From assembly GCA_002070605.1 (NCBI GenBank), contig MWDO01000031.1:1-33508 (forward strand): a DNA stretch of 33,508 nt, in the 5' to 3' direction. A program made the translations under genes and the position numbers. Every line of letters starts with the position of its first letter. The first letter of the stretch is position 1. This document shows, piece after piece, positions 7,304 to 32,749 of the stretch. Origin of the DNA: Spirochaetes bacterium ADurb.Bin133. Lineage in GTDB: Bacteria > Spirochaetota > GWE2-31-10 > MWDO01. A model generated the notes under the pieces. That model was given only the letters and a program-made list of their open reading frames with translations. It searched no databases and was not told the DNA's origin.

Positions 7304-7813
7304 TTAATATGCGTATTTGGGATAATTTTCGATTACGAGCGTGTGTAATAGCTGTTTTCGAGCGGTTATATTTAACAGTTGTGTCATTTTATCCAAAAAG
7401 TCGTTCTTCAACTTATCAATCCTCAATTTCTTACCAACGATCTCAAGAAATCCTTCCAACCCATATTTTACAACGCCGTTATAGAAAAACAGGATAATGT
7501 CGCGAACCGTCGATGCCATACCGAATTCGTTATACAAAGAATGCCATCTTTTTATTTGAAGATAGTCCGCTTCGTTAATTCTGAGGTATTTATCCACCCT
7601 TTTATCGTCGGAGCTATCTATAACGGCGTATTCGGAGCGATGATTTCCGATTATTCTTTTCATTTTTGGGATTTTTTTGTCAATAAGGTGAAACATAGTT
7701 TCAAATAACTCGCTGAACGTATTAATTTTGAATTCTTTTAACAGAAAATCTATGACGTTCTTATTCATAGACTCTGATACTATAAAATGGAATAGATGTT
7801 TTTTGTTTTTCAT
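7304..7813 (-). CDS. unknown protein, paralog 1 of a repeat-associated family with RHH-like N-terminus
   Basis: I do not recognise this 169-residue protein by name. It is about 90% identical to the product at 31987-32502. Residues 5-45 follow the beta-strand/helix/helix pattern of ribbon-helix-helix DNA-binding proteins: a strand around LFHFIVSE, a helix from MNKNV to KEFKI, then TFSELFETMFHLI. The rest is mostly helical and includes YLQIKRWHSLYNEFGMASTV. There is no signal peptide or membrane segment. The start at 7813 has GGAG 8 bases upstream; a longer frame to 7969 crosses the conserved promoter region and is rejected. Palindromic CATATG half-sites lie about 120 bp upstream, an arrangement shared with paralog 2. 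A DNA-binding role is inference. Confidence 0.8.
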   Translation of the reverse strand: MKNKKHLFHFIVSESMNKNVIDFLLKEFKINTFSELFETMFHLIDKKIPKMKRIIGNHRSEYAVIDSSDDKRVDKYLRINEADYLQIKRWHSLYNEFGMASTVRDIILFFYNGVVKYGLEGFLEIVGKKLRIDKLKNDFLDKMTQLLNITARKQLLHTLVIENYPKYAY

Positions 7814-7930
7814 AAAGTTTTCTCCTTTTTCTTTTATATATATAACAACTAAAAGTAGAAAACTCTTTACAAAAACTTGGATAAATTTTAAATAAATGAC
7901 AAATAATTTACTAATTAAAAATATCTGTTC
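7814..7930 (-). promoter_or_regulatory. conserved upstream region of paralog 1
   Basis: About 115 bp upstream of the start are closely conserved with the region upstream of paralog 2 (32503-32629). The shared parts include the AAAGGAG ribosome binding site, the block TTGTAAAGAGTTTTCTACTT on the minus strand, and a TTATATATA segment. Promoter elements are probably within it, but the -35/-10 spacing is not canonical (TTGTAA and TTATAT, about 21 bp apart). Confidence 0.45.
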
Positions 7931-7996
7931 CATATGTGTCAATTTTATTCTTAACATCATATGTGTCAATTTCCTCCCGATAAACCGGCGGGGCGC
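7931..7996. repeat. CATATG-palindrome element, copy A (partial)
   Basis: Two half-sites of the form CATATGTGTCAATTT start at 7931 and 7958. They are followed by the arm AAACCGGCGGGGCGC (7982-7996). No left arm is present; the sequence toward paralog 1 shares AATTAAAAATATCTGTT with the left interior of copy B. Confidence 0.8.
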
Positions 7997-8307: not shown

Positions 8308-8328
8308 TAAAATATTTAAAAATTAATG

Positions 8329-8542
8329 TACCCCGTCAGTTTTTTGGGGAATTAAAAATATCTGTTTCATATGTGTCGAATTTTTCATCAGGAAGCGACG
8401 CGCCGTATATAGCTCCATATGTGTCAATTTATTCGTCGGGGAGTAGCCGCGATGGTATGCAACACATATGTGTCAATTTTTTATCGAGGAGCGGCGCGGC
8501 GCATATGCGTCGATTTTCTTACCCCAAAAAACTGACGGGGTA
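8329..8542. repeat. CATATG-palindrome element, copy B, with perfect 21-bp terminal inverted repeats
   Basis: Bases 8329-8349 (TACCCCGTCAGTTTTTTGGG plus G) are the exact reverse complement of 8522-8542. Between them are four half-sites starting at 8368, 8416, 8465 and 8502. Each reads CATATG(T/C)GTC(A/G)A.TTT, with a GC-rich GAGGAGCGGCGCGGCG block before the last. Both arms end in TA, which is compatible with a TA target site. There is no transposase inside, so it resembles a MITE. It fills the gap between the tRNA pair and the PilZ-like gene. Confidence 0.92.
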
Positions 8543-8547
8543 TAAAA

Positions 8548-9165
8548 TTAATACCCGATTTTTTCAACTATTTCTCTTATTTTCTCTCTACCTTCATATA
8601 CCGTATTTGGAACTAAAAAATAGGCGTTTTTAGCGTAATTTTTCTTGTATTTTGATAGAATAGCGAGTTTATCTTCATCGGATTGCAATTTATCCAATAT
8701 TTCGCTCTCAAAAACTCCCGCTTCAATCTCGTTTGGTATGTAACCGATAAATACGGATTTCATGATAATCGATACTAAGATTTCTAAAATCGCGTTAGTT
8801 TCGGCAACCGGATTTTCCGGGCTAAAAGCTCCTATGGTCATCGAGTAACCGTCGCTGGTAGAAAAGGATATTTTATACCAAGACAATTTACGGGTAAATT
8901 TATAACTTTTATTTAGATATTCAAACGAAATATTTACAATTATATCGTCTCGGTTTAACATACTCTCTTCGATAGTATATACAAGTTCGGCGCTTTGAAA
9001 TTGAATCTGAAAACCTTTTAGGGATAAATTTAATATTTTTGCCTTATATACGTTTGAAGTATTCTTCGTAAAATTTTCTATAGCGATATTTCCTTCGATA
9101 TTTAACTCAAATCTATTATCCAATCTGTTTCCGGACATATAAGAGCTTTCGATATTTTTTTTCAT
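8548..9165 (-). CDS. PilZ-like domain protein
   Basis: The product is about 205 residues from ATG 9165, which has CGGA 8 bases upstream; an ATG at 9180 would add five residues. The N-terminal half has a RLDNRF arginine patch followed by ILNLSLKGFQIQF, matching the RxxxR...(D/N)xSxxG pattern of PilZ c-di-GMP receptors. The C-terminal 90 residues are helical and unassigned. No membrane segment or signal peptide is seen. It probably acts as a cytoplasmic c-di-GMP effector; the neighbouring divergent gene encodes an HD-GYP protein of the same signalling system. The stop lies only 6 bp from the end of repeat element B. Confidence 0.6.
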   Translation of the reverse strand: MKKNIESSYMSGNRLDNRFELNIEGNIAIENFTKNTSNVYKAKILNLSLKGFQIQFQSAELVYTIEESMLNRDDIIVNISFEYLNKSYKFTRKLSWYKISFSTSDGYSMTIGAFSPENPVAETNAILEILVSIIMKSVFIGYIPNEIEAGVFESEILDKLQSDEDKLAILSKYKKNYAKNAYFLVPNTVYEGREKIREIVEKIGY

Positions 9166-9316
9166 AATATTGTTCCGCATTATGTTTATAAGTTTTATTA
9201 TTATCGGAAACTAAGAGCTTAACCTCGATTTTTTTTGTTATCTATTCGTAAGCGACGATCTAAAAAAACAGCTAAAATTAATAATTTTCTAAAATGATAA
9301 AAATTTATGAATAAAT

Positions 9317-22066: not shown

Positions 22067-22074
22067 CGCCGTAA

Positions 22075-22224
22075 TCCGTCAGTTTTTTTGGGGGAAGAAA
22101 ATGACACATATGATGTTGCGGAGAAAATTCGACGCATATGGGGATAAAAATTAAATTAACGCATATGTGTCATTTTAAAGGAACTGTCTCAAAAGTTGCT
22201 ATTCCCCCCCAAAATACCGACGGG
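22075..22224. repeat. CATATG-palindrome element, copy C
   Basis: The left arm CCGTCAGTTTTTTTGGGGG (22076-22094) and right arm CCCCCCCAAAATACCGACGG (22204-22223) are imperfect inverted repeats. CATATG cores lie at 22107, 22135 and 22162. The first two have their GTC half on the opposite strand (ATGACACATATG, TTCGACGCATATG); the third is nearly two-sided. It fills the gap between the convergent cyclase and PilZ genes and could form a large transcript hairpin. Confidence 0.85.
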
Positions 22225-22235
22225 ACGGATAACGG

Positions 22236-23075
22236 TTATACGACGGTTTTCATTTCCGCCTCAAGGTTGCTCTGTAGGTACTTAAATATATATGAAAATA
22301 TTTTGTCCTTAATGAAGCTCGACGCGCCTGGATCGAATAAAATGACGTAAGTTCGGTCGTATTCGTTTTTTCTTACGCCTAATATTTTCCCGGACACAGT
22401 TACTAAAGATCCTTTGAGTTTTAGTTGAATGTCCGGAAACGACGCGTTTACGGGCATATCAATATTTGAGTCAAATCTACACGCCATTCCGACCGAACTT
22501 ATATCAAGTATATCGCCCGTGAGCAGTTTGTCGTAAATTTTAACGTTAAATTTTGCGTTGACGTCGCTTTCGCATCTGGCTCTGACGTATTTTCTACGCC
22601 CCTTCGCCTCGTTTATAATAAGCGTCCTAAGAAGCAAATCTTTAGTCTCCTTAACGCCCGCTTTTAACTTGATATAACCGCAAGGCAACCCGATTTTTTG
22701 AATATATTTATTTTTAACGTTTTCATCTTCGTTATAGGATATTACTCCTATTTTAAACTTTTTTAAACTGGGGTCGTTGACCAAAGATTTAACATACTCT
22801 TCCCATTTAGGTTCCGGCATGACCGCGTCTATATTAATAAACAGAATTGAATTGGGATACTTCTTAAAAATTCCGACAGCTTTTAAGTGATCTTTCACGA
22901 AATAAACTTCATACTCTTCGCGTAAAATCTCGTTGATAAGATCTTCCTGTATAATACTGTGCGGATAAAGGAAAAACACTTTTTTACCTAAATCGTCCGG
23001 CGGACTAGGAACTTTAGCTTCCTGTCGAGCGTTCGGCGGGGGATCGGATATATTTTGAGTATCGCAATTATTCAT
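22236..23075 (-). CDS. PilZ domain protein with receiver-like N-terminus
   Basis: The 279-residue protein has a proline-rich start (about 1-28) and a receiver-like alpha/beta domain (about 30-150; VFFLYPHSIIQEDLINEILRE, ILFINID). The phosphoacceptor aspartate pattern is not canonical. A PilZ domain spans about 155-265, with RRKYVR (160-165) and DISSVG (191-196), the c-di-GMP-binding RxxxR and (D/N)xSxxG motifs. It is probably a cytoplasmic c-di-GMP effector that alters motility or envelope functions. GAGGCG lies 5 bases upstream of the ATG. It is transcribed convergently to the cyclase gene, with repeat element C between them. Confidence 0.87.
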   Translation of the reverse strand: MNNCDTQNISDPPPNARQEAKVPSPPDDLGKKVFFLYPHSIIQEDLINEILREEYEVYFVKDHLKAVGIFKKYPNSILFINIDAVMPEPKWEEYVKSLVNDPSLKKFKIGVISYNEDENVKNKYIQKIGLPCGYIKLKAGVKETKDLLLRTLIINEAKGRRKYVRARCESDVNAKFNVKIYDKLLTGDILDISSVGMACRFDSNIDMPVNASFPDIQLKLKGSLVTVSGKILGVRKNEYDRTYVILFDPGASSFIKDKIFSYIFKYLQSNLEAEMKTVV

Positions 23076-23599: not shown

Positions 23600-25018
23600 A
23601 TGAGTTATATAGTTGCAAAATTTGGCGGTTGGGCTAATTCAACTGCTGATAGAGTTAAGAGATCGGCGGATCTGTTTGAAAAAAATCCCGATAGAAGGAT
23701 TAAAATTAATTCGGCAATAGGCAAAGTGGAAGGGCTTCCAAAGGTTACCGATTTACTTATCGAAGGCGCTGAAAAAGCGCTTAAAGACGGGGCGTTCCCT
23801 CAAGATATTTACGATAAGATAAAACTTAATCACTATTCTGTTTTTGAACCTCTGGGTATTGGTAGGGATAAAATCGACGAAGTAATGACTATTTTGAAAA
23901 GTTATATCGAAAGAAAAGAGGAACTCTCTAAAGATAACTATAGGGCTTTAGTCGTTGGATCAGGCGAAGAGCTGTTTACTCGATTGGACTATATTTATAT
24001 GAAAGAGATCAGAAATATGAACGTAAGATACGTCGATCCCAGAGAAATCGGGCATTTTTTGGAAGGCAATCCGCTTGACGGCAAAATATTGGAAGAGACT
24101 TACGATAATCTTTCAAAATTAAGGCGCTACGAGGAGATAATTCTTTATCCGGGGTTTTTTGCCGTCGATAAAAAGGGAAGACCGATGTTGTATAGCAGGG
24201 GCGGAACCGATAAGACTGCGGCCGACGTTTCGGCGGCAGTAGGCGCGGATATGTATGAAAATTGGAAAGACGTGGACGGAGTCTATTCGGCGGATCCAAG
24301 GATTGTTCAAAACCCCGAGTTGATGAATGAAGTTACTTATAAAGAGATAAGGGAATTGTCGTATATAAGCTTCAACGTGCTGCATCAAGAGGCGATGATA
24401 CCGGTAATGAGAGCTAACATTCCAATTTGCTTAAAGAATTTGATGAAACCGGAAAGTTCTGGCACGACCATTATTAATAAAAGAGAAATTTTAAATAACA
24501 GACCGGTCGTAGGTATAGCCCATATAGAGGATATGTTTTTTGTAAATATTGAAAAACTTTTGATGAACGAAGAGATAGGTTTTGCGGATAAGTTAACGGC
24601 AATCTTCAAAGAGCATAATATAAATATAGAGCAGATAACTACCGGTATCGATAGCATGTGCGTCGTCGTTTCCAGCAAACAGTTTCGCGAAAAAACGGTT
24701 TATACCGGAGTAGCCGAGGGGCTGAGAAAAAAAATAGATATAGACGAGTTTTCTCAATACGCTCAAAACAAGCTACATTCGGACGTTTTTAAAATAAGGA
24801 AAGATAAAGCTCTTATCTGCGTCGTCGGCGAAGGGATGAGGCGTAGCGTCGGCACGTTATCCAGAATTGCGGGAGTTTTATCGAAAAACGATATAAATAT
24901 TGAGATTATAGATCAAGGACCGAGCGAAAGAAACGTAATAATCGGAGTCGATTGTTCAAAAGATAAAGACGCCGCAAAAAAAGCGGTAAATTTTATATAT
25001 CAAGAGTTTTTTAATTAA
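23600..25018 (+). CDS. lysC: aspartate kinase
   Basis: The 472-residue protein begins MSYIVAKFGGWANS; KFGG is the conserved kinase motif, with W-A in place of the usual T-S. SRGGTDKTAADVSAAVGAD and WKDVDGVYSADPRIV are the aspartokinase catalytic blocks. Two ACT domains follow (about 315-380 and 395-470; MCVVVSS..., LICVVGEGM), usual for feedback control by lysine or threonine. It phosphorylates aspartate at the head of lysine, threonine and methionine synthesis. AGGAG sits 6 bases upstream of the ATG. The stop codon falls inside AATTAAAAACATTTGTTTCA, a sequence shared with the interior of repeat elements A and B, so its last codons may derive from or adjoin an element insertion. Confidence 0.93.
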   Translation: MSYIVAKFGGWANSTADRVKRSADLFEKNPDRRIKINSAIGKVEGLPKVTDLLIEGAEKALKDGAFPQDIYDKIKLNHYSVFEPLGIGRDKIDEVMTILKSYIERKEELSKDNYRALVVGSGEELFTRLDYIYMKEIRNMNVRYVDPREIGHFLEGNPLDGKILEETYDNLSKLRRYEEIILYPGFFAVDKKGRPMLYSRGGTDKTAADVSAAVGADMYENWKDVDGVYSADPRIVQNPELMNEVTYKEIRELSYISFNVLHQEAMIPVMRANIPICLKNLMKPESSGTTIINKREILNNRPVVGIAHIEDMFFVNIEKLLMNEEIGFADKLTAIFKEHNINIEQITTGIDSMCVVVSSKQFREKTVYTGVAEGLRKKIDIDEFSQYAQNKLHSDVFKIRKDKALICVVGEGMRRSVGTLSRIAGVLSKNDINIEIIDQGPSERNVIIGVDCSKDKDAAKKAVNFIYQEFFN

Positions 25019-25230
25019 AAACATTTGTTTCATATGCGTCGATTTTTTTTGACGCATATGTTGCAATTTCTCATCGGGGAACGGCGCGCCGCATATGCGT
25101 TAATTTCTATCCACCATATGTGTCAATTTATTTTGGCTCGACTCGATTTTCCTCTTCTCATATGCGTCGAATTCCCTCCTTGATACCATATGTGTCAAAT
25201 TTCCCTGCCTTAAAAGACCGACGGGGCGCA
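25013..25230. repeat. CATATG-palindrome element, copy D
   Basis: Six CATATG cores start at 25031, 25055, 25092, 25115, 25159 and 25187, in both orientations. A GC-rich block TCATCGGGGAACGGCGCGCC lies before the third. The right arm AAAAGACCGACGGGGCGC is at 25213-25230. There is no left arm. The left border AATTAAAAACATTTGTTTCA overlaps the lysC stop codon. Confidence 0.88.
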
Positions 25231-29563: not shown

Positions 29564-29772
29564 GCGCTTCGTCGGTTTTTTGGGGCGAGATAAATTTGAC
29601 GCATATGCGCCGCTCCCCGATAGAAAATGACACATATGAGTCTCATAGCCGCCGCGCCGCGCCATGATATAAATTGAAACATATGCGTCAAATTAAAGCT
29701 CCATATGTGTCAAAAATAAATTTGACACATATGCGCCGCGCCGCTCTTCGATGAAAAAACCGATAGGGCGCT
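29564..29772. repeat. CATATG-palindrome element, copy E
   Basis: The left arm GCGCTTCGTCGGTTTTTTGG (29564-29583) and the right arm AAAAAACCGATAGGGCGC (29754-29771) are imperfect inverted repeats. CATATG cores start at 29602, 29633, 29680, 29702 and 29728. GC-rich blocks (GCGCCGCTCCCCGAT, GCGCCGCGCCGCTCTTCGAT) are in inverted orientation relative to copies B and D. The right arm ends about 20 bp before the topB -35. Confidence 0.88.
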
Positions 29773-31986: not shown

Positions 31987-32502
31987 TTATGCGGAGCGGA
32001 CGTATTTTGGGTAATTTTCAATTACGAGCTCGTATAATAGCTGTTTTCGAGCGGTTATATTTAACAGTTGTGTCATTTTACCCAAAAAGTCGTTTTTCAA
32101 TTTATCAATCTTTAATTTCTTACCAATAAGCTCAAGAAATCCTTCCAACCCGTATTGGACAACGCCGTTATAGAAGAACAGTATAATATCTCGAACCGTT
32201 GAAGCCATACCAAATTCGTTATACAAGGAATGCCATCTTTTTATTCGAAGATAATCCGCTTCGCTGATTCTAAGATATTTATCCAGTCTTTTATCGTCTG
32301 TATTGTCTATAACGGCGTATTCGGATCTGTGATTCCCGATTATACTCTTCTTTTTTGGCATTTTTTTGTCAATAAGACGAAACATAGTTTCAAATAACTC
32401 GCTGAATGTATTAATTTTGAACTCTTTTAGTAAGAAATCTATGACGTTATTATTCATAGATTCCGATACTATAAAATGGAATAGATGTTTTTTGTTTTTC
32501 AT
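31987..32502 (-). CDS. unknown protein, paralog 2 of a repeat-associated family with RHH-like N-terminus
   Basis: The 171-residue protein differs from the product at 7304-7813 at roughly 17 positions plus the last few residues (KYVRSA versus KYAY), so it is about 90% identical. It has the same strand-helix-helix start (KKHLFHFIVSE, then TFSELFETMF). A conserved middle block HRSEYAVID is followed by helices including RIKRWHSLYNEFGMASTVRD. GGAG lies 8 bases upstream of the ATG. The homology includes the upstream 120 bp and the adjoining CATATG half-sites. Both copies are intact, suggesting selection or recent duplication. The function is not known; DNA binding at the adjoining palindromes is a hypothesis. 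Confidence 0.8.
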   Translation of the reverse strand: MKNKKHLFHFIVSESMNNNVIDFLLKEFKINTFSELFETMFRLIDKKMPKKKSIIGNHRSEYAVIDNTDDKRLDKYLRISEADYLRIKRWHSLYNEFGMASTVRDIILFFYNGVVQYGLEGFLELIGKKLKIDKLKNDFLGKMTQLLNITARKQLLYELVIENYPKYVRSA

Positions 32503-32629
32503 AAAATTTTCTCCTTTTTTTTTAATATTTCTTTAATATATATAACAACTAAAAGTAGAAAACTCTTTACAAAAATTCGTATAATTTTTTAGAAAATGAC
32601 AAAAAATTTGCTAATTAAAAAAATTGACA
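32503..32629 (-). promoter_or_regulatory. conserved upstream region of paralog 2
   Basis: The region matches 7814-7930 upstream of paralog 1, including the block TTGTAAAGAGTTTTCTACTT on the minus strand and the TTATATAT segment. An extra ATTTCTTTA-type insertion lies near the ribosome binding site. Confidence 0.45.
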
Positions 32630-32727
32630 CATATGCGTCGATTTTCATCGAGGAGTACTGCGTAGCATATGCGTCGAATTTTTATCCTTACTCCATATGC
32701 GTTAATTCCCAAAAAACCGACGGGGCA
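32624..32727. repeat. CATATG-palindrome element, copy F (partial)
   Basis: The first core (32630) is nearly two-sided: TTGACACATATGCGTCGA. Further cores start at 32666 and 32694. The block TCATCGAGGAGTACTGCGTA lies between the first two. The right arm CCCAAAAAACCGACGGGGC is at 32708-32726. There is no left arm; paralog 2 occupies that side, as paralog 1 does for copy A. Confidence 0.85.
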
Positions 32728-32749
32728 AATATCTTTCTTATTTTCTGTC

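Follow-up and report, generated by a model that had tools for sequence, protein, structure and literature searches.

A gene-less MITE-type element in a Spirochaetes genome, probably derived from an element with a ribbon-helix-helix-like gene and presumed operators

Element B, 216 bp long, proved to be a genuine DNA element that was formerly mobile and has lost its gene. It lies between a minus-strand ORF (8548-9180) and the tRNA-Lys/tRNA-Glu genes in the window, the whole stretch of 33,508 nucleotides analysed here (Spirochaetes bacterium ADurb.Bin133, contig MWDO01000031.1). A perfect 9-bp duplication flanks 8328-8543, so B is a MITE-type insertion. Element B is probably non-autonomous and internally deleted from an element of about 0.75 kb with a ribbon-helix-helix (RHH)-like gene and presumed operators. 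We observed directly the ends of B, which are common to the coding copies, its 9-bp duplication and its deletion structure.

Ends, target duplications and deletion junction

The perfect 21-bp terminal inverted repeats described by the sequence-only reading were confirmed: 8329-8349 is the reverse complement of 8522-8542, and the inverted arms reach 29 nt at 90% identity when extended. The range proposed there, 8329-8542, stood for the core, but the edges lie one base further on each side (8328 and 8543), and these outermost bases are unlike each other (G at the left and A at the right, read inward). No ORF of at least 90 aa was found inside B, in agreement with the earlier statement that it has no gene. 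B shows features of bacterial MITEs: it is short, has 21-bp perfect inverted ends, carries AAAATTAAT on both sides and belongs to a multi-copy family. Its suspected mobility is borne out by the exact 9-bp target duplications at B and at many sister copies. The coordinates of B, its parts and its relatives in the window are collected in Table 1.

Table 1. Features of element B and related copies in the window
Feature	Position	Strand	Remarks
Element B, gene-less MITE-type derivative	8328-8543	-	5' end 8543, 3' end 8328; from alignment with relatives
Left 9-bp target-site duplication AAAATTAAT	8319-8327	.	9-bp length established on 79 elements
3' terminal repeat of B GTACCCCGTCAGTTTTTTGGGG	8328-8349	+	21 bp perfect from 8329
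Leader remnant of B AAACAGATATTTTTAATT, fused to 3' end	8350-8367	-	deletion junction; precedes the gene in coding copies
Operator-like site GACACATATG	8368-8377	-	
Operator-like site GACACATATG	8416-8425	-	
Operator-like site GACACATATG	8465-8474	-	
Operator-like site GACGCATATG	8502-8511	-	
5' terminal repeat of B ATACCCCGTCAGTTTTTTGGGG	8522-8543	-	21 bp perfect from 8542
Right 9-bp target-site duplication AAAATTAAT	8544-8552	.	includes TAA stop 8548-8550 of the minus-strand ORF
Coding copy A	7304-7996	-	5' terminal repeat about 7996-7975; operators 7931, 7958; 3' end not recognisable
Gene of copy A, 169-aa predicted tandem RHH protein	7304-7813	-	
Gene-less copy	22071-22228	.	both ends and three operators; decayed target duplication
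Degenerate gene-less copy	25010-25229	.	five operators; one recognisable end 25208-25224; left edge approximate
Gene-less copy	29567-29771	.	good end 29569-29585, decayed end 29750-29766; five operators
Coding copy F	31987-32728	-	5' terminal repeat 32707-32723; operators 32626, 32630, 32666; 3' end not recognisable
Gene of copy F, 171-aa predicted tandem RHH protein	31987-32502	-	sequence modelled

Beyond the left flank, the minus strand carries TTGACT ... ATAACT, a putative sigma-70-like promoter for tRNA-Lys; with this promoter lying outside B and the stop codon of the neighbouring ORF retained in the right duplication, B destroys neither. The name PilZ, previously given to this ORF, was unsupported, as a Pfam search to E = 5 gave no match, and no clear orthologue of the neighbouring protein was found in the family. 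A PilZ match belongs to another ORF of the window, 22236-23075.

The 21-bp end, allowing at most three mismatches, was found in 211 copies across the genome (2.99 Mb), and the reversed-pattern control gave 0. A 0.79-Mb sample, made of stretches partly picked for their richness in ends and with densities that are not genome averages, contained 79 pairs of inward-facing ends with spans of about 70-710 bp. Exact 9-bp duplications at the offset seen in B flank 19 of these 79 paired elements, and 6 further elements have duplications with one mismatch; about 6,100 mismatched flank pairs taken as control gave no exact 9-bp match. No exact duplication at 10 bp was found among the 79, so the duplication length is 9 bp and the TA at the termini is part of the element. 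We also detected a nested insertion (L041:7282-7392), whose duplicated target is part of the leader of another copy, and this is the nearest equivalent of an empty-site comparison. The gene-less copies vary in their interiors and reach up to 99% mutual identity, and thus include insertions younger than the gene copies. No exact match to the end-plus-operator pattern was found in the genome contig or viral contig collections.

Two kinds of other repeats were observed in the same material. Within the element at L041:7180-7260, TCATTCCGAGCTTGTCGAAGAATC resembles another short dispersed repeat type that was captured, and long tandem arrays unrelated to the element are present at L054:16105-18772, L039:1876-15727 and L031:11502-13165, with periods of about 66 bp, 1-2 kb and 144 bp.

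Some elements with B-type ends are about 0.75 kb long and have one gene and 9-bp duplications (L058:3607-4306 is an example of a coding element with both ends). Exact 9-bp duplications flank the coding elements L048, L081, L089 and L094, with 8 bp at L123, so the coding copies, being flanked by duplications as well, moved as units. In these elements the gene comes after a leader (GACACATATG-RAACARATATTTTTAATT...), a promoter-like stretch that is conserved and a ribosome-binding site, and in complete copies the 3' end ...ATTCCCCAAAAAACYGACGG follows it. On the minus strand, B consists of the 5' end, four "GACRCATATG" units and a leader that runs straight into the 3' end. Other gene-less copies show the same join of leader and 3' end, which in B lies at 8349/8350, indicating that B is an internal-deletion derivative in which four operator units were kept.

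The encoded protein and the CATATG motif

The coding copies encode proteins of 168-172 aa, which we predict to be tandem ribbon-helix-helix DNA-binding proteins. There are 83 protein matches in this genome, more than 50 of them full length and none of these broken; the full-length proteins of the main group have 84-93% identity to copy A, and four paralogues have 36-44%. The true gene copy number is probably above the assembly count, because many contigs break in or beside the RHH gene. Breaks at this gene occur, for example, at G000 C17:62, C36:44 and C56:44.

The protein alignment comprised 14 relatives. The AF2 model has strand-helix-helix arrangements at residues 5-47 and 72-127, with a mean pLDDT of 66 and values of about 80-90 in the strand-helix-helix cores. 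The best Foldseek leads, all with E > 0.01, were F-plasmid relaxosome chains, probably TraY, together with VirC2 and viral RHH/CopG proteins. TraY is a tandem RHH protein. No convincing sequence match to the protein was found in Pfam, NCBIfam, PHROGs or PDB, and no relatives of the gene were found in viral contigs, plasmids or phages. Among the 100 genomes searched, relatives of the protein were confined to the genus and, weakly, to two other genomes of the order; the congener is the spirochaete metagenome bin Go_SlDig_bin_318, with 13 gene matches.

The four half-sites noticed inside B by the sequence-only reading are present, with CATATG at 8368, 8416, 8465 and 8502, and the half-site motif (at most three mismatches) occurs 30 times in the whole window against 1.1 expected from shuffles. 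Across the 2.99-Mb genome, the half-site CATATGNGTCNAWTT has 943 exact copies (control 0). The counts of TGACRCATATG were 1238 in this genome, 65 in the congener and 0 in each of two genomes of the same family without a detected gene. All ten diverged paralogues examined, from this genome and the congener, have a GACRCATATG-like site 118-161 bp upstream of the start, with a second upstream site in paralogue L108, and 7 of 93 control windows came within the same mismatch limit. When the commonest cassette was identified from its spacer only, 95 of the 121 operators next to it were free of mismatches, against an average spacer difference of 16%; other cassettes have conservation of operator over spacer to varying degrees, and in one it is absent. 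The position of the motif upstream of ten paralogues and the counts following the gene family suggest that CATATG is most likely the operator of the RHH-like protein. The element family has spread about 1,200 copies of the probable binding site of this protein across the genome.

The operator arrays are modular, being built of 25-75-bp cassettes that vary in order by locus and each end in an operator. In several paralogue genes, TGACACATATG also lies within the gene itself, close to its 3' end, and is read as Thr-His-Met (L148:3409-3420; also, for example, G001:C82:8810, C188:4369, C221:133, C240:1394 and C308:4655), and such genes have one site upstream plus one inside. Tandem operators were observed upstream of some genes of the congener (G001; L153 and L154), a possible natural regulon, with five TTTGACACATATGTTG copies at 22-bp spacing in L154:94-192.

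Selection and recombination were analysed in the full-length set of 54 distinct copies, 53 from this genome and one from the congener. Pairwise comparison gave medians of 0.42 for dS, 0.055 for dN and 0.13 for omega, and stop codons were found in 0 of 54 copies, with about 45 of 54 expected under random substitution. The closest gene-copy pairs are still at least 5% apart, and the promoter and leader are conserved. At distances above 10 bp, linkage disequilibrium is already close to the value for unlinked sites, and multi-nucleotide haplotypes are mostly present in all four combinations. We read this pattern in the sequences as suggesting purifying selection together with repeated gene conversion among the copies. 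Recurrent mutation after a star-like burst accounts for the single-site pattern but agrees less well with the reassorted multi-nucleotide haplotypes, and a contribution of assembly chimerism to the mosaic copies is possible but less likely.

Proposed origin and alternative explanations

In the proposed scheme, an element of about 0.75 kb with the same ends, a predicted tandem RHH gene and presumed operators would have given rise to B by internal deletion, and B would have entered its present site via a transposase-type reaction with 9-bp staggered cuts. The transposase may act in trans; it may be lost, too divergent or encoded in the missing part of the genome. The RHH protein would bind GACRCATATG and regulate its own gene, and the dispersed element copies may serve as further binding sites, either decoys or new regulatory inputs.

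No transposase with B-type ends was found among the families covered (DDE_Tnp_1, IS66, rve and IS256). IS66 and rve are absent from this genome and the congener, and DDE_Tnp_1 is absent from this genome, with one in the congener. IS256 is represented in this genome by two decayed scraps only; the 8-9-bp duplication length of an IS256-family derivative fits the B family, but no B-type ends lie beside either scrap. The autonomous transposon with the 21-bp ends envisaged by the sequence-only reading has a partial counterpart in a larger element whose gene is regulator-like and in which no transposase was recognised. A search of about 1.19 Mb gave no larger autonomous element with B-type ends and a convincing duplication. 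Two end-bounded spans of more than 1 kb were rejected, for a one-mismatch match and a low-complexity flank match.

The sequence-only reading had tentatively suggested that the TA fits a target duplication of the IS630/Tc1 type, and TA does stand at the start of both perfect arms. The TA is, however, internal to the element, 9-bp duplications are present in B and 18 other sampled elements, and other copies terminate in GTAAT or GTATC. An IS630/Tc1 origin of B is ruled out by the 9-bp duplications, and we attach almost no probability to a Tc1/mariner (IS630) MITE with TA target duplication. The same duplications, together with about 200 dispersed ends, indicate insertion and argue against a fixed regulatory RNA or terminator hairpin that is not mobile. 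The minus-strand transcript folds at -81.8 kcal/mol (z = -7.6), mainly through the long inverted ends, but any long inverted repeat folds stably, the interiors differ from copy to copy and Rfam gave no match, making this explanation very improbable. We find it slightly less probable still that B belongs to extragenic palindromes of the REP/BOX type, spread otherwise than by terminal-repeat transposition. REP/RAYT and BOX elements are numerous, short and intergenic, with palindromic cores and modules; 9-bp target duplications are not among their defining features, and RAYT is a Y1 transposase. The B family likewise consists of many short intergenic repeats, with high copy number and modular units in recurring cassettes, but it has defined ends with 9-bp duplications and its coding-copy protein does not resemble a Y1 transposase. 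Of 543 perfect operators, 416 have an end no more than 300 bp away, and the units therefore move mostly as parts of terminal-repeat elements.

More weight, although still little, goes to the RHH protein as an essential part of transposition, in a novel type of small transposon where it would be recruited by the operators beside the ends and act alone or with a host enzyme. At least one operator is kept in 79 of 79 paired elements, mostly within 40 bp of an end, and the largest convincing 9-bp-duplicated units in about 1.19 Mb encode the RHH-like protein as their sole product. Within the 0.79-Mb sample, no other dispersed repeat above 350 bp that is present in many copies bears a gene, and the poverty of this genome in IS66, rve, DDE_Tnp_1 and IS256 fits as well. 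On the other hand, no nuclease chemistry is known for the RHH fold, operator retention may reflect descent alone, and there are no recent near-identical gene-copy pairs, unlike in an actively jumping autonomous element. It is similarly unlikely that the family is a selfish 'regulator plus operator' element, a small transposon in which a tandem-RHH protein, the product of its only gene, needs and controls the operator-bearing ends and which moves with no known type of transposase; such an element would, with the same small likelihood, maintain more than 50 intact, mutually recombining gene copies and have seeded more than 1,200 operators in the genome.

Relation to described systems and significance

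The closest described MITE with internal repeats is BrickBuilt of Porphyromonas gingivalis, which contains a 23-nt spacer-less minisatellite and is present in 19 copies (PMC4596501). The two families are alike in being intergenic, MITE-like and multi-copy in one species, with small inverted ends, a leader and a tail, and internal repeats (PMC4596501). In contrast to BrickBuilt, the internal units of the B family have variable spacers and a core matching the site upstream of a gene family, and the B family has a gene-carrying sister element. Correia elements of Neisseria, MITEs with an IHF site, are similar in bearing a site for a DNA-binding protein (PMC10969869); IHF is a host protein, whereas the presumed binder of the B family is encoded by sister elements. 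The two strand-helix-helix modules per chain predicted here are reminiscent of F-plasmid TraY and VirC2, the Foldseek leads, but no sequence similarity to them was detected and their Foldseek E-values are 0.5 and higher; unlike TraY, the protein of the B family has its genomic setting in a dispersed mobile element rather than a relaxosome. In the open-access literature, we found no MITE family in which the presumed binder of the internal repeats is a product of sister elements, and no paper joining MITE, RHH and spirochaetes.

With over 50 gene copies in one genome both intact and mosaic, the question arises which selection keeps so many working. If confirmed, the proposed origin of element B would mean that one bacterial mobile element family spreads a regulator-like gene plus its binding sites, and would provide a testable system for the seeding of regulatory networks by transposons.
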